From Thermanaerosceptrum fracticalcis (lineage in GTDB: Bacteria > Bacillota > Peptococcia > DRI-13): a stretch of DNA of 64,000 nucleotides. Both the position numbers and the translations under genes were made by a program. The notes under the pieces are model-generated. The model had not been told where the DNA came from and made no database searches. It saw only the letters and a program-made list of their open reading frames with translations. This document shows positions 46,854 through 61,467 of this stretch, in pieces; the first letter of the stretch is position 1, and each line of letters starts with the position of its first letter. The stretch covers positions 1,722,501 through 1,786,500 of the forward strand of contig NZ_CP045798.1 of NCBI RefSeq assembly GCF_000746025.2, given 5' to 3'.

Positions 46854-47215
46854 TTAAAGATCTTTTTCCCCAATAACGCGTATTACACGACTTGTTAACT
46901 CAATTCCTTTCAAGTACGTTTCAATGGCCAAATGTTCATTGGGCGCATGATTCCCCGAGTCCGCATCCCCCCAGCGTACTTGTATGGCGGGTAAGCCCAA
47001 AACATTGGTCCATAAGTAATCCGGAGCTGTAGAGGGGCGACTGGGATAGAGAATGTATTCCCCATATGTTTCCCGGGTGGCTTCTTCTATAAGGGGGAGG
47101 TAAGGCGTATCGACTGGAGTTTTAGATGGTTCTACACATCCTTTAAGCTCTATATCAACATTGTCATATCCTAACTTTCGGACAAAACTTACTAACTTTT
47201 CAAAGATCTCAGCAG
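46854..47215 (-). pseudogene. C-terminal remnant of an M20 peptidase, copy 2
   Basis: About 118 codons ending at TAA 46854: LVSFVRKLGYDNVDIELKGC, PSKTPVDTPYLPLIEEAT, NVLGLPAIQVRWGDADSGNH, APNEHLAIETYLKGIELTSR. It corresponds to the last third of an ArgE/DapE-type M20 enzyme and is clearly a paralogue of the copy next to it. The start of the homology meets the end of copy 1, so a deletion between tandem genes is likely. Confidence 0.8.
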
Positions 47216-48050
47216 GAGTTTGGTTTGCTACCTTTCAAGGCTTGCCGGTAGTCTTCCAGGACAATATTCTCATCAGGTGCGTGATTAAGAGAACCTGCAT
47301 ATCCTGGGCCTATAGAGGCAATAGGCATATCGGTCCAGCTACTGAAAACATAGCGGGGACCGGTCCCGGCGGAACTTGGTTCAATGACAAAAGGTTTGTC
47401 ATAGACTAAAGCTCCTGCCTCCAAGACAACCTTAACAAACGGTGAAGTAATAGGAGTCTTGGCCGGTTTGGCAGTACTCAAGGTATGTATTTCTACATCC
47501 TGGAACCCGTGCTTATCCAGATGTTTTCTTAGCAATTGAAGAATTTCCTCAGGATCCTGGTCCACGGTCAGGCGAAAATCAATCTTAGCCATGGCTGTAG
47601 AGGGAAGTACTATCTTTTGGCCTTCTTTGGTATATCCCGATTCTATCCCGCAAATGGTACAGGTAGGCGCATTAAAAAGTTGATTGGCAAAGTCTATTCC
47701 TGTTACCCCGTTTAATAATTCCTTTATCTGGGCCCGCTTTCTTATTTTGTCTTCCTGGGCTGCCAGGTCTTTTAAAGCACCATATTCTTCTTCAGGAATA
47801 GACCTAACCTTATCATAAAATCCTTCAATGAGTATTTTTTCATTTGCACCTTTGAGTGTGGAAATGGCCCAAACAAGTCTCCACACCGCATTGGGAATAA
47901 CGGGAGCAAAACGGGAATGGTAGTCTGTAGCGGCGGCTTTTACCCTCATTTCCACATAGAGCATACCCTTATTACCCAGGCGAATAACGGGATGACCGTT
48001 CTCATCTTTAAAAGAGTTTTCCCAGATACACGACTCCCAGGTTGCGTAGC
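47209..48050 (-). pseudogene. M20 family peptidase, truncated, copy 1
   Basis: About 280 codons from ESCIWENSFKDENGHPVIRL to EDYRQALKGSKPNSC. It contains the lid domain and second half of the catalytic domain of an M20 (ArgE/DapE) peptidase: MLYVEMRVKAAATDYHSRFA, FRLTVDQDPEEILQLLRKHL, PIASIGPGYAGSLNHAPDEN. The N-terminal metal-binding half is missing; homology stops near the transposase remnant at 48.06 kb. A 251-codon ATG frame exists but the active-site metal ligands would be incomplete. Confidence 0.8.
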
Positions 48051-48079: not shown

Positions 48080-48715
48080 TAACAGCTATGGGTAAAAAGC
48101 TACTTCTTTTAGCAAATGTTTCGGGTTAAGCTTGATGTATTGTCCTTTACGTGACACAGGGTCATAGATTTTCCGATACAGAATCGTATTGCTTTTGGCC
48201 TTGGTAACCCAGTCAAAGCCCTGAGCTATAAGCCAGAATAGGAACTTTTTACACAGAAACCAGCGATCCATGGCGCCCCAGAGTCTGGCATTGTTCAGTC
48301 GACGTATCTCCGAGAGCATCTCTCTGGCCAGGTCAAGCTTAGTCTGTTTTTCATTTTCCCGGTCGGTTTTAACCCAAAAGCGCCATAACATGGGATATTC
48401 CAGACCATTTTTTAAAACAGCAAGGGTCGATACAAGGTTCATGCACCAGACATGGCGTTTTTCAGAACTGTCAAAGAGCCAGCAGAGAAAGGGGATTTTT
48501 TTCCGTGAGGATGCTTAAGATCAAACAAATCCCAGATTGTCTTGAGTACCGGAATTCCGGCACCTCGCCCGTGATCTTTTTTCTCGAAAGTAGCTTTACA
48601 AAGCTTGCTCATCAATATCACCCATATCGCCAGAGTGATGGTAAAAAGTACTATCCTCTGCGATTATGGGGGCTTTCCAAAAATGTCAAGGCCTTTTTTG
48701 TCGAAAATTAGGATC
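48080..48715 (-). mobile_element. Decayed transposase (IS4/IS701-type DDE) remnant
   Basis: Two or three frames give parts of one DDE transposase: KATFEKKDHGRGAGIPVLKT, WDLFDLKHPHGKKSPF, then after a frameshift MNLVSTLAVLKNGLEYPMLW and LNNARLWGAMDRWFLCKKFL, FWLIAQGFDWVTKAKSNTIL. The N-terminal part and terminal repeats are gone. It probably arrived in and helped break up the M20 genes. Confidence 0.7.
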
Positions 48716-48748: not shown

Positions 48749-50671
48749 TTATTTCCACCAACTGCATAACTCCTGTTTTGAAGTTTTTTTTTTCAGATTT
48801 AAGTAGCAAAGAATACAAAACAGTATAAACCCTGGAATAGATATTGTTATTTGCGGAGTCATTAACAAAAGGGCCGCTATTATAAAAAGGCTGCGTTCTA
48901 GTGCACTGATTTTATTAGCCAAGAACCCGCTCACTCCAGCGGACAGTGCTATAATTCCAATAATTGCACTGGTTATGTCAATAATAATGGTCGCCACATC
49001 ACCATGTAGTAATAAAGTACTGTCAATCATAAACATAAAAGGAATAATAAACGACGTGCTTCCAAGTTTTAATGCCTGCCAACCTACTTCCATAGGATCA
49101 GCTTTCGCAATTGCGGCTCCAGCAAATGCAGATAAACATACCGGCGGTGTAATAGTAGACATACAGGCAAAGTAAAAAATAAAGAGATGGGTGGCTAGTA
49201 ACGGTACTCCTAGGTCTACTAGCGCTGGTGCGACTGTACTTGCCGCTAGTGCGTATGCGGCAACAGTAGGTAGTCCCATGCCTAATAAAAGACAAAGCAT
49301 CATAACTAGAAATAACGCTACCGCCACATTACCCCCAGATATAACGATTACAAAAGATGCAATTTTTGCTCCTAATCCTGTCAAAGAAAAAACACCGACT
49401 ATAATACCAGCACAGGCAGTAGTAGCGGCAATTGATGCCATTCCTTTCATAGCATTACTAACTGCCTCAAAGAATTGTTTCAGGAATATTTTTTCGCTTT
49501 TTGTAAACCAACTTAATATAATCAGGGATCCAATTGATAATATAGCAGCACGAACTGGTGAATTTTGTAAGACAAGTAATGATAAAAGCATTACTATTAA
49601 AGGTATAAGCAAATAACCACGCTCTTTAAGAACTTTCAGTGTATCAGGCAGCTCGCTTTTTGGTAATCCTACCAGACCAAGCTTTCCAGCTTCAAAATCA
49701 ACCATAAATATAACAGCTAGGAAATATAGTAATGCTGGTACCATTGCAGCAATAATTATGGTTGAATAGCTAATACCTGTAATATCTGCCATTATGAACG
49801 CACCGGCCCCCATCACCGGAGGCAGTATTTGTCCTCCAGTTGAAGCTACAGCTTCAACGGCACCGGCAAATTGTGCCTTATACCCCACTCTTTTCATCAA
49901 AGGTATTGTAAAGGCTCCGGTACTTGCAACATTCGCAACAGCACTCCCGTTTATTGAACCCATCATTGCGCTAGAAATAACAGCCACTTTTGCCGGTCCT
50001 CCACGGAAACGACCTGCAATTGAATAAGATAAGTCAATGAAAAATTTCCCACTTCCTGTTACTTCAAGAAATGCACCAAACAATATAAATATAAATACAT
50101 AGTTAGCTGAGACACCCAAAGGTATATTATAAATTCCGTCCATACTGAACATATAGCTTATAATCCTCTCAAGACTATATCCACGATGCCAAAGTTCTCC
50201 GGGAAAGATTTTCCCGAAATAAGTATAACCTAAAAAAAATACTGCTAATATCGGTAGTGCCCATCCTGTCGTCCTTCTAGTTATTTCAAGCAAACACAAT
50301 ATTGCTACAGCTCCAAAAAACAAGTCCCATGAGGTAGGAGCAACGCCAACCCTGTCAAGCATTTCAACATAGTTAACCGTTATATAGATACTTGAGGCTA
50401 GTAGTAATGAAGCCATTACAAAGTCAATAATTGTAGGTCTTGACGTTGATTTGCCCTTAATTGCAGAATATGTTAAAAAGCCAATAGCCCCAGCCCCTGC
50501 AAAGTGAAGGGCTCTAAAAACCCAAGGATCTATTGGATATACAGAAAGTACAATTATTTGAAAAATTCCAAAAGTAAGTCCTATCAAAAACACTACCTTT
50601 GCATTAAAACCACTAAGCTGTCTTTGTTGTCTTTCAAAGTCATCTAAATTCATATCCTTATTAGTATCCAT
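48749..50671 (-). CDS. TRAP transporter fused permease (TAXI type, 4TM/12TM)
   Basis: 640 aa, about 18 membrane segments: the small DctQ-like part (about residues 25-160) fused to the large DctM-like part. Family marks GGPAKVAVISSAMMGSINGS, GAVEAVASTGGQILPPVMGA, LGMGLPTVAAYALAASTVAP. This fusion is the partner of TAXI-type solute-binding proteins and moves dicarboxylates, amino acids or other organic anions with sodium. GAGAGGTG precedes ATG. Last gene of the AOR operon. Confidence 0.93.
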   Translation of the reverse strand: MDTNKDMNLDDFERQQRQLSGFNAKVVFLIGLTFGIFQIIVLSVYPIDPWVFRALHFAGAGAIGFLTYSAIKGKSTSRPTIIDFVMASLLLASSIYITVNYVEMLDRVGVAPTSWDLFFGAVAILCLLEITRRTTGWALPILAVFFLGYTYFGKIFPGELWHRGYSLERIISYMFSMDGIYNIPLGVSANYVFIFILFGAFLEVTGSGKFFIDLSYSIAGRFRGGPAKVAVISSAMMGSINGSAVANVASTGAFTIPLMKRVGYKAQFAGAVEAVASTGGQILPPVMGAGAFIMADITGISYSTIIIAAMVPALLYFLAVIFMVDFEAGKLGLVGLPKSELPDTLKVLKERGYLLIPLIVMLLSLLVLQNSPVRAAILSIGSLIILSWFTKSEKIFLKQFFEAVSNAMKGMASIAATTACAGIIVGVFSLTGLGAKIASFVIVISGGNVAVALFLVMMLCLLLGMGLPTVAAYALAASTVAPALVDLGVPLLATHLFIFYFACMSTITPPVCLSAFAGAAIAKADPMEVGWQALKLGSTSFIIPFMFMIDSTLLLHGDVATIIIDITSAIIGIIALSAGVSGFLANKISALERSLFIIAALLLMTPQITISIPGFILFCILCYLNLKKKTSKQELCSWWK

Positions 50672-50706
50672 TTTTTCACCTCTCTTGTGCTAATCAATCC
50701 AATTAA

Positions 50707-50783
50707 GTTATAAAGAACTCTTTGTTTATTATGGCTTTATTTACAAATGTTGCACTTAAACATAAACAAAGAGCTCTTATAAC
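50707..50783 (-). other. Intercistronic hairpin between the TAXI and TRAP permease genes
   Basis: Arms of about 22 bp (50707-50729 and 50762-50783; core TAAACAAAGAG / CTCTTTGTTTA) with a one-base bulge and a 32-base loop. No T-run follows. It should shield the upstream binding-protein message from 3' decay and so raise its level over the permease (inference from similar intercistronic stems). Confidence 0.75.
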
Positions 50784-50841
50784 AAATCTTTAAATCACAA
50801 GTAGTGGAACGGTTAATATGGATTTATACTATAGTCTTTCC

Positions 50842-51873
50842 TTACTTCGAATATTCTGGGGGATATGCGGATTTTGGAAGCTTAACACCTTTTTCATCAT
50901 AGTATTTTATTGCTCCCGGATGTAAAGGGACAGCAGTTATCGAATCCGGTACTATATCTAAATTTAGTTCAGCGGCCTGTATTACTGCTTTTTGCAATTC
51001 GTTTTTTTGTTCAAAAGTAGTTTTTACTAATTCGTAAACTAAGCTGTCAGGAAGGTTTTTATTCACAGCGAAAGCGCTGTAAATAGTTAGAGTTTCTATA
51101 TCCTCGGTCTGTCCTTCGTAACTTTTGGCTTTCATAATTCCACTTGTAATCCCGTATTTTTTAGCAAGTTCCTTCGACTTTTCTCCTAAGCCCATCACTT
51201 TAGCGTTTTGAGTTCTTATAACTTCTGCCCCAGTTGGATGACCTGTGGGGGCAAAGACACCGAAAGCATGTATAGTTTTATCTGCCATTAAATTGGCATA
51301 CTCACTAAAGGAGCTATTAATAATACGGGAGGCTTTTATACCTAAATCATCTAATATTTTTACTGTATAATAATCAGGCGTTCCTCCCCTGGCTCCAGTA
51401 CCTACAACCTTACCTTCAAAGTCAGCGACCGTTTTTATATTTGTATTAGGTGCTACAAACCAGTGTAAATAACTAACATACATTGGGAAAATAGTTCTTA
51501 TATTTTGATGCTTTTTATCTGTCCAGCCAATTCCATTGTATGCTTCATATGCTGGACCCATTGTAACTAAACCAACATCTGACTGACCATTATCGACTAG
51601 TTGAAGATTAGCAATTGGACCAGCGGTTGCTTCTACATTAGTCGCAATACCCAGATTCTTGTTAATTATACTAGCCCAGGCTGTAGCATACACGTGAAAG
51701 GTTCCTCCCAGCGGCGCTGATGAAACGGCAATACCCTTAGGCCAATCCTTTTTGTTTGAAATATCAGTTTTACTATCAGATGTTTTACTTTCAGACTGCC
51801 CGCATCCAGAAATAAGCAAAAACAAGGATACACATAACAGAATCAAAACCATTGATTTAAAATACTTTTTCAA
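50842..51873 (-). CDS. TAXI family TRAP transporter solute-binding lipoprotein
   Basis: 343 aa. Lipoprotein signal with lipobox LISGC (Cys about residue 24). TAXI hallmarks: SSAPLGGTFHVYATAWASII, NVEATAGPIANLQLVDNGQS, GARGGTPDYYTVKILDDLGI. Captures an organic anion outside the cell and passes it to the fused permease encoded next. AGGAGG before the ATG. The 100-bp gap to the DASS gene shows no other gene. Confidence 0.93.
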   Translation of the reverse strand: MKKYFKSMVLILLCVSLFLLISGCGQSESKTSDSKTDISNKKDWPKGIAVSSAPLGGTFHVYATAWASIINKNLGIATNVEATAGPIANLQLVDNGQSDVGLVTMGPAYEAYNGIGWTDKKHQNIRTIFPMYVSYLHWFVAPNTNIKTVADFEGKVVGTGARGGTPDYYTVKILDDLGIKASRIINSSFSEYANLMADKTIHAFGVFAPTGHPTGAEVIRTQNAKVMGLGEKSKELAKKYGITSGIMKAKSYEGQTEDIETLTIYSAFAVNKNLPDSLVYELVKTTFEQKNELQKAVIQAAELNLDIVPDSITAVPLHPGAIKYYDEKGVKLPKSAYPPEYSK

Positions 51874-51972
51874 TGTTGACTCCTCCTTAATAAATTATTT
51901 TCATGTATTACAATTGGGATTACTTTTTTCCACCTCCCCTCTTTCAAAATCGAATTATAAGGCCTTCTCTCT

Positions 51973-53382
51973 TTACCAGATACTAAGACCTACTAAAGGC
52001 CACCATAAGAAAACCACAACCAGGATCACGGGTACAGCCAGTAGTGACAATAACGTGCCAGCTTTAAGTAAATCCTTTCCTTCAATACCACCTGAGGAAA
52101 AAACCACAATATTGGGCAAAGTTTCTACTACTAGAATAAAACCAAACAATGAAGCGATTCCTGCAACTAAACCAAACACCACAGGATTTGCACCGATTTT
52201 TACAGCAGCAGAAATTATAAGAGGCACAAGCGTTACATGACAGGAGGTAACACCTGCAAACCCTAGATGATAAATCTGAGTAAAAAGAGTTATTACTGCT
52301 ACCGCTAATAGTGGACTATTTAGTATACTTTTCACTATTTCTAATGATAAAAACATTCCCGCTAAATATTCTGCGGTACCTGTGGAAGTCAGTGCTCCTC
52401 CAAAACTCAAACTTGCGCCATATAAAAGAATTGAACCCCAATTTATATCAACCACTTTCTTCCACTCGGTAATACCTGTAACAGGTGCCACCATTAAGGC
52501 AACGGCCAGTAAAGCGGGGGCTGATACAGGTAAGTGATGTATTTTCTGAGTAACCCAGAGTAAAAAAGTGATCAGGAGAATAGTAATACATCTTTTTTCT
52601 TCAGGACTAAGTTTTCCTAATTTTGTTAATTCGCTGTAAATTTTAGTTGTGCCACCGGGAAGCTTGTTGATTTCCGGTTTAAATACCCTGACTAGGACCA
52701 ACCATGCTGCAACGGTCATTAGAATGGAGATGGGATAAGTTAAAATCATCCAGTCAAGATAATACATCTGATATGATGTACTCTGCCGGATAAACTCAAT
52801 TGTCAAGGGGTTCACCACGGCTCCCGTGATAAGACCAACTCCACTAATCATAGCGCCAAAAGCAAGGCCTATTAGTAATAATTTCTTAATGTTTTCCGCC
52901 GGGCTTTCTTTTTTAAATATATCAATAATCATTAGCACAATAGGCAATAGAAGGGTGGCACGTACTGCTGAGGCAGGAATTATAAATGCTAATACCTGGA
53001 GGGATACCATAATACCTAAAAGGATTCTTTGGGCAGTACTTCCAAACAACATTATTATGCATAGTCCTATTCTATGCCCCAATTTTGTAGAATTTACTCC
53101 GTTAGCAATCATCATGCCAGTCATAAGAATAAAAAGGGCGTCATTGGAAAATCCTTGATAAACATCATTAAAAGGAATTATTCGTAAAAAGAATAACGCT
53201 ACTAGTACAATGATTGAAGATGCTGCCAGAGGTATTGGCTGGAAAATCCATAATCCTATGGCAACAATTAATAATATGGTTGTTGCTTTTACAGGCCAGG
53301 CTACACTAAGCGGCATTAGAAATAGCACCAATAAAACTGCTAATATTGTGATGCTACAATACATTAACAAAGATTTGCTCAT
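51973..53382 (-). CDS. DASS/SLC13-type anion transporter
   Basis: 469 aa, 11-12 TM segments, two repeats as in divalent anion:sodium symporters (CitT/SdcS): LFILMTGMMIANGVNSTKLG, GVGLITGAVVNPLTIEF (the SNT/NPx anion loop), and LGFAGVTSCHVTLVPLII in the second half. Imports or exchanges a dicarboxylate, tricarboxylate or sulfate-like anion. AAGGAAGG overlaps the stop of the mini-ORF upstream, so the two are translationally coupled. A second uptake system in one operon beside TRAP-TAXI is unusual. Confidence 0.9.
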   Translation of the reverse strand: MSKSLLMYCSITILAVLLVLFLMPLSVAWPVKATTILLIVAIGLWIFQPIPLAASSIIVLVALFFLRIIPFNDVYQGFSNDALFILMTGMMIANGVNSTKLGHRIGLCIIMLFGSTAQRILLGIMVSLQVLAFIIPASAVRATLLLPIVLMIIDIFKKESPAENIKKLLLIGLAFGAMISGVGLITGAVVNPLTIEFIRQSTSYQMYYLDWMILTYPISILMTVAAWLVLVRVFKPEINKLPGGTTKIYSELTKLGKLSPEEKRCITILLITFLLWVTQKIHHLPVSAPALLAVALMVAPVTGITEWKKVVDINWGSILLYGASLSFGGALTSTGTAEYLAGMFLSLEIVKSILNSPLLAVAVITLFTQIYHLGFAGVTSCHVTLVPLIISAAVKIGANPVVFGLVAGIASLFGFILVVETLPNIVVFSSGGIEGKDLLKAGTLLSLLAVPVILVVVFLWWPLVGLSIW

Positions 53383-53393
53383 TTTTACCTTCC

Positions 53394-53471
53394 TTAAAGA
53401 AAAACTACAACCAAGATCACGGGTACAACCATTAGTGACAAAAACGTACCGCTAATTTTCTTTTTAAACAT
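53394..53471 (-). CDS. 25-codon mini-ORF copying the DASS C-terminus
   Basis: ATG behind GGGGG and ending at TAA within the DASS ribosome site. Its product, a basic start then SGTFLSLMVVPVILVVVFL, matches the DASS transporter's own late segment AGTLLSLLAVPVILVVVFL in 15 of 19 residues and at the DNA level (53397-53449 against 52009-52061). It may be the relic of a deleted tandem DASS gene or a small membrane protein kept for coupling. Confidence 0.6.
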   Translation of the reverse strand: MFKKKISGTFLSLMVVPVILVVVFL

Positions 53472-53504
53472 ATATCAACCCCCTGACTAATTCTAAAATT
53501 AAAA

Positions 53505-54485
53505 CTATTTCCTCAACATCGGAATATTCACATAATGCAAGACAGGCTCACCTTTGAGGGCCCTTACGATATCTTCAAACGTATATTCAGCCATTCGCTG
53601 AGTTGATTCGATACTACCTCCGGCATGATGGGGAGTGACAATTACATTATCAAGTTGCAAAAGAGGATCATCAGGATTGATGGGTTCCTTATGGAATACA
53701 TCCAGGGCTGCACCTGCGATCCATTTTTCTGATAATGCTTTATATAAGGCTTCGTGTTGAATCAATGGTGCGCGGGCCACGTTGACGATATAAGCAGTGT
53801 TTTTCATTAACTTTAGTTCTGCTTCCCCAATCATGCCTGTAGTTTCGGCTGTTTGGGGGGCATGTAAAATGACAACGTCTGATTGAGCCAATAATTCCTG
53901 TAAATTAGTCATCTCGCAGCCAACTTCCAAGGCCCTGTTTTTCCCTACATAAGGGTCGTATCCCAAAATCTTCACACCAAAGCCCTGCAGTCTCCGGGCA
54001 GTTTGATAGCCTATTGCCCCTAAGCCAACAATACCCACTGTCTTCCCGTAAAGTTCAGTGGTTTTTCCAAAAAACTTAAAACGCTGCCATTCTCCTGTGG
54101 TCTTCAAAGGAACATGAGAGAAGACAATCTGCCTTAATAATGACAAGGTAAGACCTACCGCAAACTCAGCTACAGTTACAGCGTTAGCACCCATAGGCAT
54201 CGTTATAGGAATACCTTTTGCTGTAGCAGTGTCCACATCAACGTTTTCCAGACCTATACCATCCCTGGCAATTAGTTTTAAACCAGGCGCCGCTTCAATC
54301 ACATCTTTGGTGATTTGAGTTAAAGTTTTGGCAACGATAATAGTGGCGTCCTTAACTTTTCCGATAAGTTCTTCCTGTCTTTGCCATAATGTTTCATCAA
54401 TAAACATTTCACATAATTTTGTTTCTTCTAACTTTTTTAGTAAGGGTGGATTGATTTTCTCAGCAATAAAAATTAAATCTTTCAT
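53505..54485 (-). CDS. D-isomer-specific 2-hydroxyacid dehydrogenase
   Basis: About 326 aa NAD(P)-dependent reductase/dehydrogenase. N-terminal substrate domain (LKLIARDGIGLENVDVDTA), NAD-binding GKTVGIVGLGAIGYQTARRL (GxGxxG, about residue 150), catalytic Arg in IVNVARAPLI, Glu in DVFHKEPINPDD and His in VIVTPHHAGGS. Looks like a phosphoglycerate or hydroxypyruvate-type enzyme. AAGGAGG before MKDLIF; the frame extends seven codons upstream, overlapping the AOR gene. Probably interconverts a 2-oxo and a 2-hydroxy acid in the operon's pathway. Confidence 0.92.
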   Translation of the reverse strand: MKDLIFIAEKINPPLLKKLEETKLCEMFIDETLWQRQEELIGKVKDATIIVAKTLTQITKDVIEAAPGLKLIARDGIGLENVDVDTATAKGIPITMPMGANAVTVAEFAVGLTLSLLRQIVFSHVPLKTTGEWQRFKFFGKTTELYGKTVGIVGLGAIGYQTARRLQGFGVKILGYDPYVGKNRALEVGCEMTNLQELLAQSDVVILHAPQTAETTGMIGEAELKLMKNTAYIVNVARAPLIQHEALYKALSEKWIAGAALDVFHKEPINPDDPLLQLDNVIVTPHHAGGSIESTQRMAEYTFEDIVRALKGEPVLHYVNIPMLRK

Positions 54486-54496
54486 TTTTCTCCTCC

Positions 54497-56368
54497 TTAG
54501 TCCCATAAATCTTTTATAGTAAATTCTAATCCTAATTCCTTTAACTTCTCTTTAGTGGGAATACCAGTCTGAAGGTCCCAGCCTCTGAAAGCATAATAAT
54601 CATCTTTCATTTTTTCCAGCTGTTCTTCAGTAATATATAATCCGGCACTGGGGCCCTCCGGAATGGGCTCCGTTAGGAATCTTTTCGGCAGAGTATCATC
54701 TTCCCTTCTCTTACCTTCTCGACAATTGAAGGCCCTTTCCAGGTTCCACACCCTTTCTCCCAGCGTCCTTATTCCATCTACGCCAAAATTTAAACCGGTT
54801 ACCAGTTTAATTGCTCGAGAATGGACCTCTGTAATATCAAAAAAACCTAAAAAATTTTCAGCCATGTGGCAAATAATAAAGGAATCTGTAGCTGCCGTCA
54901 TATTATTAATAATGGCGACATATTGTCCTTTGCCTTCGGTAGTTACCCGGTCAACCTCTCCGCTGCGTTCTGCTTTGGGCCTGGGGTCGTGGTGACTGCC
55001 ACCCCGGGTAGCAACGGCATAACCCATCCCCAATCCTTTATGGGCCCGGGCTGAGTGGCCGGCAGGTTCAAGACCTTTAATATGTACAGCATAGTCTTCC
55101 GAACCCTTTCCGATAATTTGTGCGGCTCTTCTAGTCCCCTCAGCTAAGATATCTCCTAATCCCTTGCGCTCCGAAATTAGCTTTAGCATTTCCAGCATTG
55201 CTTCGGCATTAGCAAATTTAAGGTCGATCCCGCCTGTATCTTTCAGAGACAAAATACCTCTCTCATATAATTCCATGGCAAAGGCAACTGCTGCTCCTGC
55301 AGAAAGTGTATCCATCCCATAGTCATCACATAGTCTGTCGCCAAGAGCAATAGCTTTCAGGTCACTAACACCGCATAATGAACCCAAACTAAATAATGTT
55401 TCATACTCCGGCCCTTCTGTAACAGCACCCTGATAAGGTCCATCATTTACTTCCGCAATTTTGCCACACATCATGGGACAGTTGTAACAGGCCTTATTTC
55501 TTTTCACAAGTGTATTCTTAAAAGCTACGCCGTTAATTTTCTCTGCCTCAGGAAATACTTCAGTCTGCCAGTTCCTGGTGCCCAATACGCCGGCCAGGTT
55601 TCCGGCCATTACATTTGGTGTAGTACCAAATTCATAATAAGTCTTTCCTGACACTGGATTTTTCATAATTTGCTGAATAACTTTTTCACTAAGCTCAACT
55701 AATCCCTCGTGGTCATAAACAGTTATATCAGAAGATCCCCTAACTGCGATGGCTTTCAGGTTTTTCGATCCTAAAACGGCCCCAAGCCCGCCCCTTCCTG
55801 CAGCCCTCACTCCAAAGAAAACCCCGGCATAACGAACCAAATTTTCACCAGCAGGACCTATTACGGCAATCTGCACTTCTTCGTCGTTGAGCTCTTCTTT
55901 AATTAGTCGCTGTGTCTCATAAATACCTTTACCCCATAATCTTTCAGCAGAACAAAACTCTACCTTTCCATCATCGATCCATAGATAAACGGGGTTTTCA
56001 GCTTTACCTTCAATAAGAATACCGTCATAACCGGCAAACTTTAGTTCGGGCGCAAAGTAACCGCCAGCATAACTGTCAAAAAACATATCAGTTAGCGGAG
56101 ATTTACCAAAGACCCCCACACGGGAACAAAGAGGCAGTATGGTACCGGCTATGGGACCCGTCATAATGGCAATTTTATTTCTTTTGTCATAAGCGTCAAT
56201 CTTAGGAGGTATTTCCTTGTATAAATAATAGGCAGCTAGCCCATTCCCCCCTAAAAATTTTTCAGCTAATTGAGGATCTAAAGGTTCATTAATTATTTTC
56301 ATCGTTGAGAGATCAATGCGTAAAATTTGCCCTTTATACCCTCCATAGGGAAATTTTTTAGAAGCCAT
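54497..56368 (-). CDS. Aldehyde:ferredoxin oxidoreductase family tungsten/molybdenum enzyme
   Basis: 623 aa. N-terminal AOR domain (GGYKGQILRIDLSTMKII, MTGPIAGTILPLCSRVGVFG, AAGRGGLGAVLGSKNLKA for the pterin phosphates), then the 4Fe-4S site CYNCPMMCGK with the fourth Cys in NLERAFNCREGKRR, and DRLCDDYGMDTLSAGAAVAF. All cluster and pterin-binding marks are present. Oxidises an aldehyde to the acid with ferredoxin as acceptor, or the reverse. The ribosome site lies inside the codons for the terminal Gly-Gly of the upstream MoaD-like gene. Substrate unknown. Confidence 0.93.
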   Translation of the reverse strand: MASKKFPYGGYKGQILRIDLSTMKIINEPLDPQLAEKFLGGNGLAAYYLYKEIPPKIDAYDKRNKIAIMTGPIAGTILPLCSRVGVFGKSPLTDMFFDSYAGGYFAPELKFAGYDGILIEGKAENPVYLWIDDGKVEFCSAERLWGKGIYETQRLIKEELNDEEVQIAVIGPAGENLVRYAGVFFGVRAAGRGGLGAVLGSKNLKAIAVRGSSDITVYDHEGLVELSEKVIQQIMKNPVSGKTYYEFGTTPNVMAGNLAGVLGTRNWQTEVFPEAEKINGVAFKNTLVKRNKACYNCPMMCGKIAEVNDGPYQGAVTEGPEYETLFSLGSLCGVSDLKAIALGDRLCDDYGMDTLSAGAAVAFAMELYERGILSLKDTGGIDLKFANAEAMLEMLKLISERKGLGDILAEGTRRAAQIIGKGSEDYAVHIKGLEPAGHSARAHKGLGMGYAVATRGGSHHDPRPKAERSGEVDRVTTEGKGQYVAIINNMTAATDSFIICHMAENFLGFFDITEVHSRAIKLVTGLNFGVDGIRTLGERVWNLERAFNCREGKRREDDTLPKRFLTEPIPEGPSAGLYITEEQLEKMKDDYYAFRGWDLQTGIPTKEKLKELGLEFTIKDLWD

Positions 56369-56369
56369 T

Positions 56370-56666
56370 TTATCCTCCCTCCGCGTAATAGATAATAGCT
56401 ACTTCATCCTGGTCTTTTAATTTGACATCACAGAGATCTTTTTGGGCATAAACCCTACTGTTAATGACATACATAATAGGCAGATATTGACCTGTGTCAG
56501 GGTCTTTGATAAGTTCTTTTATTTCTTTACCGTAAATCTCAATCAGATACTCTAAGAATTCATAAAAACTGCTGTTCTTTTTAATATATAACTCTTTTTT
56601 ATGAGTACCGACAATAAGTTGAATGTCACCGTAAGATAGCAGGTAAATTCTATCAATATCAGTCAT
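56370..56666 (-). CDS. MoaD/ThiS-like ubiquitin-fold sulfur carrier ending in Gly-Gly
   Basis: 98 aa, predicted beta-grasp fold: ELYIKKNSSFYEFLEYLIEI, YLPIMYVINSRVYAQ, LKDQDEVAIIYYAEGG. The C-terminal Gly-Gly is the thiocarboxylation site used in molybdopterin (tungstopterin) synthesis. Its position between the ferredoxin and AOR genes suggests a dedicated sulfur carrier for that enzyme's cofactor. ATGA overlap with the ferredoxin gene, two-base gap to AOR. Confidence 0.85.
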   Translation of the reverse strand: MTDIDRIYLLSYGDIQLIVGTHKKELYIKKNSSFYEFLEYLIEIYGKEIKELIKDPDTGQYLPIMYVINSRVYAQKDLCDVKLKDQDEVAIIYYAEGG

Positions 56667-57175
56667 GGGTTTTTCTTTTCTCCCTTATATTTGACGGAGA
56701 TTTTTTGGGCAAACTTAACACGTTTTTGATTTGACGTACTATTAATAGTAGGTTTTTCTACCTTGGGCGCCTCGCAGTCACAGATTAAAAAGCCTCTAAC
56801 ACAATGTTTAACACATTCCGGTTCACCACCACACAGGTCACATTTGACTGCTATATTCTCAACGGGATGGATGAAGATAGCTCCGAAGGGACATGCTTCA
56901 ACACAGTCTCCGCATCCGGTACACAAGGATTTATCGACTATTAAAACACCTGTAGTTTCATTCCTTTCAATAGCATTGCTAACGCAAACCCTGGCACAAG
57001 GAGCAGAGTTGCATTGCTGACAGGTAACCGGAACGGGGATTTCCGGTAATCCTATTAAGGTTACCCTGATCCGGCTTTTCTTGGGATTGACAACCCCTTC
57101 TTTTTTCAAGGAACACCATATTTCACACATCCTGCAACCGGTACACTGTGCAAAATCCACATTGATTTTTCCCAT
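56663..57175 (-). CDS. Ferredoxin-like protein with four 4Fe-4S motifs (AOR partner)
   Basis: About 170 aa. Cysteine clusters in order: CTGCRMCEIWC, CQQCNSAPCARVC, CTGCGDCVEACPFG, CDLCGGEPECVKHC, sixteen ligands as in DmsB/HybA-type electron-transfer subunits. C-terminal basic tail. Accepts electrons from the AOR enzyme encoded two genes later and passes them to the cell's ferredoxin or membrane pool. Start at MGKINVDF after GGGGGG; a GTG four codons earlier is possible. Confidence 0.92.
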   Translation of the reverse strand: MGKINVDFAQCTGCRMCEIWCSLKKEGVVNPKKSRIRVTLIGLPEIPVPVTCQQCNSAPCARVCVSNAIERNETTGVLIVDKSLCTGCGDCVEACPFGAIFIHPVENIAVKCDLCGGEPECVKHCVRGFLICDCEAPKVEKPTINSTSNQKRVKFAQKISVKYKGEKKNP

Positions 57176-57190
57176 AGAACCCCCCACCCG

Positions 57191-58168
57191 TTATAGATTT
57201 TCATATTGTTTATACAGTTCTACATATTCCTGGATGCCTTTTTTAAGGTTATATTGGGGTTGATATTTTAGTTGCTCGACTGCTGCCGAAATATCCAATT
57301 TACCGCGTTTTTTGACATCGCTCTTTTCAAATTCACTTAAACCAGCGCCAATTTTAATTTGAGCTGTGGGTACGACTTCTTTCACTACTTCTGCAACTTC
57401 AGAGGCCTTAATTACCTCCCCCCCCGATATTAAGAAAACTCTTTGTTTAAGATCCTTATCATTTGCATCTAAAGCCTTAAGGATAGACTGTGCACAATCC
57501 TTTACATATGTATAGTCCCTCGGCATATCTCCACCAGTTGCAAACTCAACGGGCAGGCCTCTTAAGCTATTTTCTACCATTGGTTTGATGTACATGGGAT
57601 AACGCATCCCATAACCATAAATTGCCGAAAATCTCAGGGCAATAAAATTAACTTTATTAAATGTATAATAAGTTAAGCCAAAAATCTCACATGCCGCCTT
57701 AGATGCCCCATAAGGCCCCGTGGGATGCCCTTCGGTAGGTAAAAAGACTGGGTGTCTTTCATCCATGGGTTCGTATTGTTTGACAGGAAAAACACCAATC
57801 GTGCTTACATGCACTATTTTTTCAAGTCCTAAAATCCTAACTGATTCTAAGACATTTAATGTTCCCTCCACATTAATCTTGTAAGTTAAGTAGGGCTGCT
57901 CCAGTGAGAACTGAGGATCAAATAGGGCACCCGAGTGTACTACCTTTTCCACTTTTTCTTCCTTTAATGTCCTGATTAACGTAGGTAAATCATTGAGCTG
58001 TCCCTTTATAAACTTGACCTTTTCGATAACGGATTTTAAATAGTTAACCATAGCTCCAGACGGGTAAGAAATATCATAAACAACCACTTCGTCTCCCCTT
58101 TCCACTAAGTCCCTCACCACATAAGCTCCTAAAAACCCCGACCCGCCAGTTACCAACACCTTTGACAT
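57191..58168 (-). CDS. NAD-dependent epimerase/dehydratase (extended SDR)
   Basis: About 325 aa. Rossmann start MSKVLVTGGSGFLGAYVVRD (TGxxGxxG), DISYPSG, VVHSGALFDPQFS, and the catalytic YGASK in PTGPYGASKAACEIFG. Typical of sugar-nucleotide or cinnamoyl-CoA/3-beta-hydroxysteroid-like SDRs that reduce or epimerise a small alcohol. First gene of the operon. The frame runs 16 codons further upstream into the leader hairpin; GGAGG before MSKVLV sets the start. Confidence 0.9.
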   Translation of the reverse strand: MSKVLVTGGSGFLGAYVVRDLVERGDEVVVYDISYPSGAMVNYLKSVIEKVKFIKGQLNDLPTLIRTLKEEKVEKVVHSGALFDPQFSLEQPYLTYKINVEGTLNVLESVRILGLEKIVHVSTIGVFPVKQYEPMDERHPVFLPTEGHPTGPYGASKAACEIFGLTYYTFNKVNFIALRFSAIYGYGMRYPMYIKPMVENSLRGLPVEFATGGDMPRDYTYVKDCAQSILKALDANDKDLKQRVFLISGGEVIKASEVAEVVKEVVPTAQIKIGAGLSEFEKSDVKKRGKLDISAAVEQLKYQPQYNLKKGIQEYVELYKQYENL

Positions 58169-58205
58169 CTTAATACCTCCTTTGTTATTTCGATTTAAAT
58201 AAAAA

Positions 58206-58283
58206 CAGCCAACCACATGGAAAATTTCTTAGGATTTTTCTACAAAGAATCTATCCTAAAAATACCTTCCATATAGTTGGCTG
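58206..58283 (-). promoter_or_regulatory. Leader attenuator of the AOR operon
   Basis: On the minus strand CAGCCAAC-N5-GGAA ... TTCC-N5-GTTGGCTG followed by TTTTTATTT, i.e. a terminator-like stem, with an inner TAGGAT...ATCCTA hairpin. It lies between the presumed promoter and the first ribosome site, so transcription would stop here unless an antiterminator or ligand acts. No known riboswitch core is evident. Confidence 0.6.
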
Positions 58284-58499
58284 GATATTACCTACCTCAA
58301 AGTCATTACAATAACCTTATATTGGCAGAGAATACAACCATATTATTTAATTAAAAACTTTTAGCATATTTTACTTGTACTACTATGAAATATATTCGTT
58401 ATGTTCTATTTAATTCCTGCTATTTCGAAAATATTTTAAAGGATTTTTTTGTAAAAAATAGAAGATTATATTTAGTTTACCTTGAGGGGGGGAAATATT
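58284..58499. other. Divergent AT-rich promoter region between the AOR operon and DUF3870
   Basis: About 215 bp with no gene, strongly AT-rich. It must contain the start sites of both the operon and DUF3870. I did not find a convincing sigma-54 or a clear paired -35/-10 on either strand. Confidence 0.5.
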
Positions 58500-58838
58500 G
58501 TGTTACCATCATCAAATAAAAACTGGTATGTCGTTGGTCATGGGAAACTACCTACTGATATTCCAACTGCTAAATTTCTTGATATAGTACTTATCGGCCT
58601 TGAAATAGATCCCAACACTGATCTGATAGTTAATGCATATTGTACGTTATATACTCCTTTAGCTAGAAACATGATAAGAAAAATGATGATAGGATATAAT
58701 ATTTCTTCTCAAGCAGAAGAAATTATCAAACAAATCGAAACCCGGTTTCATGCCGCATCTCAAAGGGCCATCATTGTGGCTTTTAAAAATGCTTGCATCA
58801 ACTATTCTAAAGCAAAGCAAAAACAGCTCAATAAATAA
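58500..58838 (+). CDS. DUF3870 domain protein
   Basis: 112 aa. NWYVVGHGKLPTDIPTAKFL, GLEIDPNTDLIVNAYCTLYT, IGYNISSQAEEIIKQIETRF and HAASQRAIIVAFKNACINYS match the DUF3870 pattern (conserved Cys and a His-containing helix). Function unknown; it is commonly found beside dicarboxylate or acid-metabolism operons and may sense their ligand. GTG start seven bases after GGGGGG; frame extends six codons earlier. Divergent from the AOR operon. Confidence 0.8.
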   Translation: MLPSSNKNWYVVGHGKLPTDIPTAKFLDIVLIGLEIDPNTDLIVNAYCTLYTPLARNMIRKMMIGYNISSQAEEIIKQIETRFHAASQRAIIVAFKNACINYSKAKQKQLNK

Positions 58839-58912
58839 AATATAAGAGAGGTAACTACTCCTCTCTGTTCAGAAAAACTCTTAAGTATCTTCAAGTAATT
58901 TTTTTTTGTAAG

Positions 58913-60398: not shown

Positions 60399-61370
60399 CT
60401 AAACCCTTAATTCTTCCACCAGGTTAGGCGGCACTTCCCCCTGCAAAGCCTTCACCAGGTTTTGGGCAGCCAGCATGGCCATAGCGAAACGGGTTTTCGC
60501 CGTGGCCGAGCCGATGTGAGGTACAGTTACTACATTAGGCATCTTCAGAAGAGGATTACCGGGATCAACAGGTTCCTGGGAAAAGACATCTAAGCCTGCA
60601 CCCCAAATCTGGCCTTTTTCCAGGGCCGCAATCAGAGCTTCTTCGTTAACTGTCTCACCCCGGGAAGCGTTAATAAAAATGGCGTTTTTCTTCATTAGGC
60701 TGAATTCGTGCGGGCCCATTAGGCCAGTGCTCTCAGGGGTAAGAGGCGTCATCAAAACAACATAATCGGCTTCCTGAAGCAGTTGTTCCAGGGTGCGGTA
60801 GTGGACACCCAGGCTTTCTTCCACTTCAGGTTTCCTGCGGCGGTTATAATAGAGAACTTCCATACTGAACCCGTATTTGGCCCGTTTGGCAACGGCCTCG
60901 CCGATGCGGCCCATGCCGATGATGCCCAAAGTTGCGTGATGCACGTCAATACCCCAGAAAGGTTCATCGGAGCATTTCTGCCACCTGCCTTCCTTAACAA
61001 ACCTGTCCAACTCGGGGATGCGCCGGGCTACAGCCAGCATGAGGCCAAAAATCAGGTCGGCCACGGTATCATCCAGCACCGACGGCGTATTGGTCCCCAA
61101 CACTTTTCTTTCTCCCATGGCCTCTAAATCAAAGTTGTTATAACCTACGGAAATATTGCTGACTACCTTCAATTTAGGTGCATGGTCCAGTAATTCCCTG
61201 TCAATTTTTCCACCCGTAATGAGTAGTCCTTCTATATCTTTTACTTCCTCCAGTAATTGTGCCCGGGAGATAGGTTCGTCCGAATCCCACTTGCGGTACT
61301 CACAGTAACGGGCCAGGTATTCTTCCACTTCCCGGGGAATTTTTTTGGCGATAAATACTTTGGATTTCAT
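60399..61370 (-). CDS. D-isomer-specific 2-hydroxyacid dehydrogenase (glyoxylate/2-ketogluconate reductase type)
   Basis: About 323 aa. NADPH-type Rossmann loop (HATLGIIGMGRIGEAVAKRA, then YYNRRRKPEVEE with the arginines that favour NADPH), INASRGETVNEEAL, DVFSQEPVDPGN and VTVPHIGSATAKTR supply catalytic Arg, Glu and His. Similar to but distinct from the operon enzyme at 53.5 kb. Reduces glyoxylate, hydroxypyruvate or 2-ketogluconate. Start after GGAG with eight-base spacing. Confidence 0.92.
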   Translation of the reverse strand: MKSKVFIAKKIPREVEEYLARYCEYRKWDSDEPISRAQLLEEVKDIEGLLITGGKIDRELLDHAPKLKVVSNISVGYNNFDLEAMGERKVLGTNTPSVLDDTVADLIFGLMLAVARRIPELDRFVKEGRWQKCSDEPFWGIDVHHATLGIIGMGRIGEAVAKRAKYGFSMEVLYYNRRRKPEVEESLGVHYRTLEQLLQEADYVVLMTPLTPESTGLMGPHEFSLMKKNAIFINASRGETVNEEALIAALEKGQIWGAGLDVFSQEPVDPGNPLLKMPNVVTVPHIGSATAKTRFAMAMLAAQNLVKALQGEVPPNLVEELRV

Positions 61371-61467
61371 CACAACTACTCCTTTTTCAGGTATATATAA
61401 ACCAATTATAACTCGCCCGAGTAATGAAATGATATATTATTTTAATTTTTTAAGTTGTCTAAAAGAA

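Follow-up and report, generated by a model that had tools for sequence, protein, structure and literature searches.

Tungsten oxidoreductases that combine a polyferredoxin, an aldehyde:ferredoxin oxidoreductase (AOR), and a ThiS-like protein form Class II of this enzyme group, in which these components are designated WorS, WorL, and WorX, respectively (Putumbaka 2026; PMC13328260). WorX often accompanies the other two, and Eubacterium limosum has served as a host for producing such enzymes (PMC13328260). The linkage of MoaD to AOR was published in 2006 and was read as tungsten cofactor synthesis (Iyer et al. 2006, PMC1779556). The 2026 tungsten oxidoreductase classification counts 38 clades that include Class II enzymes but lack a characterized member (Putumbaka 2026), and the transporters named in PMC13328260 are those for tungstate and molybdate only. 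The set of AOR, ferredoxin, and MoaD, which the original prediction for the present locus had singled out as special, had thus already been described (PMC1779556, PMC6365974, PMC13328260).

The window that we analyzed is a 64,000-nt stretch of Thermanaerosceptrum fracticalcis contig NZ_CP045798.1, and all coordinates are positions within it. As predicted, it holds eight genes on the minus strand and a divergent gene for a DUF3870 protein on the plus strand (58482..58838), all matching the families proposed for them; every match except that of MoaD exceeds its curated cut-off. The first gene encodes an extended SDR of the NAD-dependent epimerase/dehydratase type (57191..58168), with intact GGSGFLG and YGASK motifs. 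Its reading frame is open from a GTG at 58216, but the true start is almost certainly the ATG at 58168, since an AAAGGAGG ribosome site precedes that codon. Next comes a polyferredoxin (56663..57187), whose family match and motifs correspond to a WorS/AorA-type small subunit (PMC13328260, PMC6365974). It had been called a 16-Cys ferredoxin, which is accurate for the 16 Cys in its four [4Fe-4S] motifs and not for its total of 18. This four-cluster subunit adjoins the AOR gene, with only a MoaD/ThiS-like, WorX-type carrier gene (56370..56666) in between. The carrier does end in Gly-Gly; its TIGR01687 match is weak (E 1.5e-6, under the 49.5-bit cut-off). The AOR large subunit (WorL; 54497..56368) has both the AFOR_N (PF02730, 263 bits) and AFOR_C (PF01314, 435 bits) domains. 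Its CX2CX3C motif at 294-301 and Cys500 are intact, and the [4Fe-4S] ligands are present, since Cys294, 297, 301, and 500 have counterparts in an alignment with Pyrococcus AOR. The last enzyme gene (53505..54506) encodes a D-isomer-specific 2-hydroxyacid dehydrogenase (2-HADH) without an ACT domain, with an intact GLGAIG motif and with phosphoglycerate dehydrogenase and glyoxylate reductase as its closest solved relatives. Judged by sequence, the enzyme core is of the Class II WorS/WorL/WorX type and as such is not new. None of the eight genes encodes a FAD subunit (WorN) or bifurcation subunits (WorABC). The operon also lacks E1/MoeB, MoaE, MoeA, and a tungstate transporter, and the description of it as self-contained does not hold.

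Two importers follow the enzyme genes. The DASS anion symporter (51973..53382) scores 224 bits against the TIGR00785 cut-off of 198.6, yet both SNT motifs that mark the ion/substrate site in the DASS/SLC13 family are replaced, by SAV and GVT; the DASS proteins of loci L137 and L149 are likewise non-SNT. The TAXI-TRAP importer comprises a TAXI solute-binding lipoprotein (50842..51873; TIGR02122, 177 bits) and a fused TRAP permease (48749..50671; TRAP_fused, TIGR02123, 688 bits), both above cut-off. In TAXI proteins of the glutamate type (VcGluP/TtGluBP), Gln93 binds the ligand together with Tyr45 (PMC11574862). The Gln aligns with a Thr of the window TAXI, and we did not adopt glutamate as the ligand by homology.

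Upstream of the SDR gene, the minus strand can form a leader hairpin of about 30 pairs (58206..58283; -45 kcal/mol, z -8.9). Next to it, at 58197-58205, comes UUUUUAUUU, with the SDR ribosome site about 25 nt farther on, and the hairpin may act as a terminator or attenuator. Its own copy is the only one in the genome, and we rejected a dispersed repeat. A second stem-loop on the same strand (50707..50783; -27 kcal/mol, z -4.5), without a U-run, lies between the TAXI and TRAP genes and is a candidate cause of unequal expression of binding protein and permease. Consensus promoters and terminators were no more frequent than in shuffled sequences, and a search of 46.5-60.5 kb against Rfam found neither a Moco/W riboswitch nor any other RNA up to E 1. 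The strong terminator-like leader hairpin, the non-SNT DASS, and the TAXI protein without the glutamate-binding Gln are new details of this operon.

The exact gene set was found only in a sister species, where it is 98% identical. This does not bear out the exact set as a conserved pathway; the SDR, the 2-HADH, and the DASS therefore have no independent conservation with the window AOR. No orthologous SDR was found in 399 genomes of the phylum at E 1e-60, and the closest relative found, 34% identical, is at locus L191, alongside TAXI-TRAP and DUF3870. What recurs is the architecture. A TRAP, TTT, or DASS importer is present at 11 of the 16 loci of the window AOR clade versus 4 of 36 other AOR loci (Fisher P=6e-5, on contigs of differing length); locus L139 adds a sodium:solute symporter. 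The importer loci of the clade usually also carry an alcohol or hydroxyacid dehydrogenase, and the dehydrogenases beside the core at other loci include beta-HAD and Fe-ADH. The host genome is rich in importers (16 TRAP and 6 TTT permeases), which makes some AOR-importer adjacency expected, and we controlled for this: all four clade loci of the genome (4/4) have a TRAP or TTT permease gene on the same strand no more than 8.5 kb away, where 0.2 would be expected, a proximity reached in 0 of 20,000 random rotations.

We favor, with somewhat better than even confidence, an import-and-oxidize operon built around a Class II tungsten oxidoreductase, as one instance of a recurrent modular cassette of Clostridia that keeps the Class II AOR core and exchanges importer and dehydrogenase. 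That the locus forms one import-plus-oxidation unit, as originally predicted, gains support because importers of the carboxylate type and dehydrogenases repeatedly accompany this AOR clade, and DUF3870 recurs by such importers. Joint transcription of all eight genes is our inference, and the spacing bears on it. The SDR-ferredoxin gap is 3 bp, ferredoxin and MoaD overlap by 4, the MoaD-AOR gap is 1, and AOR and 2-HADH overlap by 10, whereas the gaps before DASS, TAXI, and TRAP are 122, 99, and 170 bp; tight packing is thus limited to the five enzyme genes. The wider spacing ahead of the transporter genes (99-170 bp) counts against a single operon. The locus might instead comprise two or three neighboring units, namely, an SDR-Fd-MoaD-AOR-2HADH operon plus DASS and TAXI-TRAP systems under their own control and with unrelated substrates. 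The widening of the gaps from <4 bp would fit this, and two unrelated importers in a single operon would be redundant. Yet all of the genes are on the same strand, the intergenic gaps of the operon showed no strong terminator, and importers recur beside this AOR clade where the dehydrogenases are different ones; we regard separate units as unlikely.

In the import-and-oxidize model, a small organic acid is probably imported and converted to an aldehyde, whose oxidation by the tungsten enzyme would yield high-energy electrons. The TAXI-TRAP system, the DASS protein, or both would import a hydroxylated organic anion, a carboxylate or possibly a sulfonate. Oxidation of this anion by the SDR and/or the 2-HADH, with NAD(P)+ as the acceptor, would give an oxo or aldehyde intermediate, and WorL would oxidize the aldehyde to the acid, passing low-potential electrons via the four-cluster WorS to ferredoxin. 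The WorX-type protein may aid pterin cofactor synthesis, with activating enzymes encoded elsewhere. An AOR is also capable of running toward acid reduction, which counts against the oxidation model. Were the direction reversed, the AOR would use reduced ferredoxin to convert an acid to an aldehyde, the dehydrogenases would carry the reduction further, so disposing of electrons, and the transporters would exchange substrate and product. Acid reduction by AORs acting jointly with alcohol dehydrogenases is reported for acetogens and Thermoanaerobacter (PMC10816221), and the operon holds two NAD(P)-type dehydrogenases; acid reduction is, however, thermodynamically difficult without a strong pull (PMC6365974). 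Importers with a solute-binding protein are, moreover, built for uptake, and we consider the reverse direction improbable.

Sulfonate uptake by TRAP and TTT systems is known and would suit an organosulfonate substrate in place of a carboxylate, with the dehydrogenase and the AOR acting on a sulfonated aldehyde. PfASOR, a characterized Class II WOR, accepts taurine (PMC13328260), and in the sister species an AOR-Fd-ThiS-DUF3870 cluster includes a beta-HAD and an ABC importer of the sulfonate/taurine type, but the window operon lacks a sulfonate-cleaving gene and no sulfonate-specific family exceeds its cut-off, and we find this substrate doubtful.

The window DUF3870 protein belongs to PF12986 (86 bits). 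Its family lies beside importers or a methylmalonyl-CoA mutase set at 38 of 50 loci and is also found next to TAXI-TRAP systems in other families, so that DUF3870 may be an accessory protein accompanying carboxylate-uptake and catabolic operons. A DUF3870 gene also lies beside a TRAP operon in a genetically tractable Moorella strain. The protein had been suggested to sense the substrate of the operon; its predicted alpha/beta fold corresponds to no known fold of sensors or DNA-binding proteins. One paper uses the same accession for a domain of Bacteroides BVU_4064 that is rich in beta structure (PMC4387736), a structure that these DUF3870 proteins do not match. The best Foldseek hit was IscU (E 0.006, TM 0.46). 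We rejected an IscU-type scaffold on the grounds that this similarity is weak, profile comparison with NifU_N is not significant, and the three IscU/NifU cluster-ligand Cys are absent, with no invariant Cys among 48 DUF3870 sequences. Kinship with triosephosphate isomerase (phmmer E 0.04) gained no support from profile search and was not adopted.

The lineage-specific eight-gene set is by itself of modest interest. More broadly, and tentatively, at slightly less than even confidence, we propose that a clade of Class II tungsten AORs in Clostridia is the constant core (WorSLX) of modular plug-in cassettes in which the importer (TAXI-TRAP, DctPQM, TctABC, DASS, or ABC) and the NAD(P) dehydrogenase (2-HADH, beta-HAD, Fe-ADH, or SDR) are swapped. 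Each copy would use a different imported hydroxy-anion to reduce ferredoxin, DUF3870 would be a new carboxylate-uptake accessory, and the window copy would be under a leader attenuator. If the clade is wired to importers in this way, the physiological substrate could be sought directly and testably through each cassette's binding protein, instead of by aldehyde screening, and the unstudied DUF3870 family gains a physiological setting in carboxylate uptake and methylmalonyl-CoA operons.

The cluster of Moorella mulderi (L010/L151) retains DUF3870-Fd-MoaD-AOR (AOR 66%, Fd 56%, and DUF3870 43% identical) and shares with the window the order of the core, a hairpin preceding the core, and a downstream importer and hydroxyacid dehydrogenase. 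It has DctPQM in place of TAXI-TRAP and DASS and a beta-HAD in place of the D-2-HADH; it lacks the SDR, includes an MBL-fold (metallo-)hydrolase, and has DUF3870 co-directional. The neighborhoods of Iyer et al. 2006 (PMC1779556) likewise place MoaD strictly adjacent to AOR with a ferredoxin close by, whereas the neighbors listed there are a disulfide oxidoreductase and genes for the cofactor, with no importer or hydroxyacid dehydrogenase. The Class III AorABCDE operon of Aromatoleum aromaticum also encodes a four-cluster small subunit, an AOR large subunit, and MoaD-like proteins. In contrast, the window operon has neither the FAD subunit AorC nor any FAD/NAD disulfide-type protein, its MoaD-like gene sits between the small- and large-subunit genes, and its AOR scores higher in sequence comparison with Pyrococcus AOR (448 bits) than with Aromatoleum AorB (371 bits). 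Operons with TRAP, TTT, or DASS importers and exchangeable dehydrogenases are not described for the characterized Class II WORs (PMC13328260), and the repeated pairing of AOR with importers and a small DUF3870 protein in this bacterial group appears to be undescribed so far. In their core, these enzymes (PfASOR and CbGOR; PMC13328260) resemble the window: they have a two-domain AOR, a neighboring four-[4Fe-4S] subunit, a ThiS/MoaD-like protein next to it, and no flavin subunit.

The operon occupies positions 48749-58216 of the window on the minus strand and is transcribed in the order SDR, polyferredoxin, MoaD/ThiS-like protein (ending in Gly-Gly), AOR, D-2-hydroxyacid dehydrogenase, DASS carrier, TAXI lipoprotein, and fused TRAP permease. 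The DUF3870 gene (58482-58838) is divergent from it. These eight one-strand genes and their divergent neighbor are all present and match the families named in the original prediction, which described a 16-Cys ferredoxin; four cluster motifs do account for 16 cysteines, and the protein has 18 in total. The SDR start should be replaced by the ATG at 58168. Neighboring enzyme genes, of which there are five, overlap or lie at most 3 bp apart, and gaps of 122, 99, and 170 bp precede the transporter genes.

Upstream of the SDR ribosome site, about 30 base pairs form a hairpin (-45 kcal/mol; z, -8.9) with UUUUUAUUU directly after it; the genome has a single copy of this hairpin. Since the upstream same-strand gene has a terminator-like site of its own (58845-58866), the probable target of the hairpin is the operon itself, for which it would serve as an attenuator or a barrier. 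A second stem-loop sits between the TAXI and TRAP genes. Directly behind the operon is a degraded copy of a DDE transposase (window 48095-48651; genome 1770595-1771151), adjoined by an M20-type dipeptidase gene (47209-47964) that lacks its N-terminal part (matching residues 181-424 of 436) and is a probable pseudogene. On the other side, a second D-2-hydroxyacid dehydrogenase gene (60399-61373) is separated from the operon by genes for a 3-methyladenine glycosylase and a serine-aminopeptidase-type hydrolase.

To what extent this gene set is conserved was examined by scanning about 85,000 species genomes for peptide patterns, which yielded two AORs more than 50% identical to that of the window; no further close relatives were found in all 46 class genomes examined or in 399 sampled from the phylum. 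The first, from a sister-species MAG (98% identity; locus L009, on the same contig as G001:C64), lies in the order DUF3870-SDR-Fd-MoaD-AOR-2HADH-DASS, after which the contig ends. The second, from Moorella mulderi (66% identity), closes a DUF3870-Fd-MoaD-AOR series, behind which come genes for an MBL-fold hydrolase, DctP-DctQ-DctM, and a beta-hydroxyacid dehydrogenase; unlike the window operon, this locus has neither SDR nor 2-HADH. Across the distance to M. mulderi, the core and DUF3870 are therefore kept, with importer and dehydrogenase swapped. A hairpin with a U-run between DUF3870 and Fd in M. mulderi could simply terminate the DUF3870 transcript.

The association of AOR with an importer recurs within the genome, a single contig of 3.8 Mb with 11 AOR genes. 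All four loci of the window AOR clade in this genome have one: TAXI-TRAP with Fe-ADH and an enolase-superfamily gene at 365 kb; TctABC with an MBL hydrolase and Fe-ADH at 2,624 kb; DctP/DctM with beta-HAD, Zn-ADH, and a glycyl-radical enzyme at 1,624-1,635 kb; and the TAXI-TRAP and DASS operon of the window. In all four, a TRAP or TTT permease gene on the same strand lies no more than 8.5 kb away, where rotated AOR positions gave an expectation of 0.2 loci and never reached four of four in 20,000 rotations. In the tree of collected AORs, TRAP, TTT, or DASS genes occur at 11 of 16 loci of this clade versus 4 of 36 elsewhere (P, 6e-5), figures that are only indicative because clade limits and counts were set post hoc, from a tree and neighborhood table already seen, and locus lengths are unequal. 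Among the five importer-negative clade loci, one has a sodium:solute symporter; the remaining four sit on short contigs or by a contig edge. We found no description of AOR paired with TRAP transporters in the open literature searched; a 2026 classification of tungsten oxidoreductases names transporters of tungstate and molybdate only (PMC13328260).

On one strand at genome positions 1617000-1632000 are the end of a glycyl-radical enzyme gene and an activase gene, together with Zn-ADH, DctP, two AORs, beta-HAD, and two ThiS/MoaD-like genes. At 2324000-2336000, AOR and a ThiS-like gene adjoin Zn-ADH, SDR, and a galactarate/altronate-dehydratase-type enzyme split into two genes, SAF domain and large part. 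A sister-species locus (G001:C33) carries, on one strand, AOR-Fd, a ThiS-like gene, DUF3870, a sulfonate/taurine-type ABC importer, a cupin, and beta-HAD, and is a further importer version of the AOR cassette. The DDE element, with about 18 near-complete copies in the genome, is also found within the 1,627-kb AOR-importer cluster and near that at 372 kb; three of four AOR-importer loci are close to a copy, a post hoc observation possibly due to chance.

We judge most likely a mechanism in which a hydroxylated anion would be imported and undergo NAD(P)-dependent oxidation; AOR would then oxidize the resulting oxo or aldehyde compound with ferredoxin, giving an acid and low-potential electrons. 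The direction of the reaction, the order of the two dehydrogenases, and the substrate are what we infer; in a rival explanation, the operon runs in reverse. According to another, the genes are independent neighboring units, and a third places the chemistry on a sulfonate rather than a carboxylate. Homology does not reveal the substrate for either DASS or TAXI-TRAP. The DASS protein no longer has either SNT motif, nor do those of another AOR locus (L137) and a DUF3870 locus (L149), and the TAXI protein lacks Gln at the position decisive for glutamate in VcGluP (PMC11574862).

DUF3870 is present in 55 of 399 phylum genomes, and its neighbors show that it generally accompanies the uptake and catabolism of organic acids. 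Methylmalonyl-CoA mutase is found at 14 of 50 readable loci, an importer gene at 32 (10 of them DASS; a raw count with no random-locus baseline), and either at 38; since ABC genes are common, it is the mutase and DASS/TRAP links that carry weight. DUF3870 also adjoins TAXI-TRAP in other families (L188, L191, and L175, where the search puts it directly after the TRAP gene), and its place beside the window operon is probably not accidental. In L191, from a Moorella-genus genome (G403), DUF3870, MmgE/PrpD, a creatinase-like M24 protein, an isochorismatase-type hydrolase, SDR (34% identical to the window SDR), TAXI, and TRAP lie on one strand, and AOR is absent. The AlphaFold model is confident (pLDDT, 90.7) and alpha/beta, with IscU as the closest structural match (E, 0.006); profile comparison with NifU_N was negative, and cluster-ligand cysteines of the IscU type are absent. 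The protein bears little resemblance to DNA-binding regulators, and a putative sensing role is possible. In a 2015 paper (PMC4387736), the accession PF12986 (DUF3870) denotes a beta-rich domain of Bacteroides BVU_4064 (PDB 3kog), which is not matched by proteins that the current PF12986 model finds.

The operon had been predicted to be self-contained, which does not hold for the cofactor: E1/MoeB, MoaE, and MoeA genes are absent from it. A MoaD gene adjoining AOR was described in 2006, with a probable role in W-cofactor synthesis (PMC1779556), and Aromatoleum has AorA-AorB-AorC with two MoaD-like genes (PMC6365974). Among solved structures, the window AOR matches those of the AOR branch, at 448 bits for Pyrococcus AOR and 371 bits for Aromatoleum AorB; the cluster ligands are present, and Glu332, a ligand of the bridging iron in Pyrococcus AOR, is not conserved. 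The enzyme core is of an already known kind, the Class II tungsten oxidoreductase, in whose published definition a large subunit is paired with a small one bearing four clusters and there is no flavin subunit (PMC13328260). It resembles that class in its four-cluster small subunit, its flavin-less makeup, and its ThiS/MoaD-like neighbor, named WorX in the same classification.
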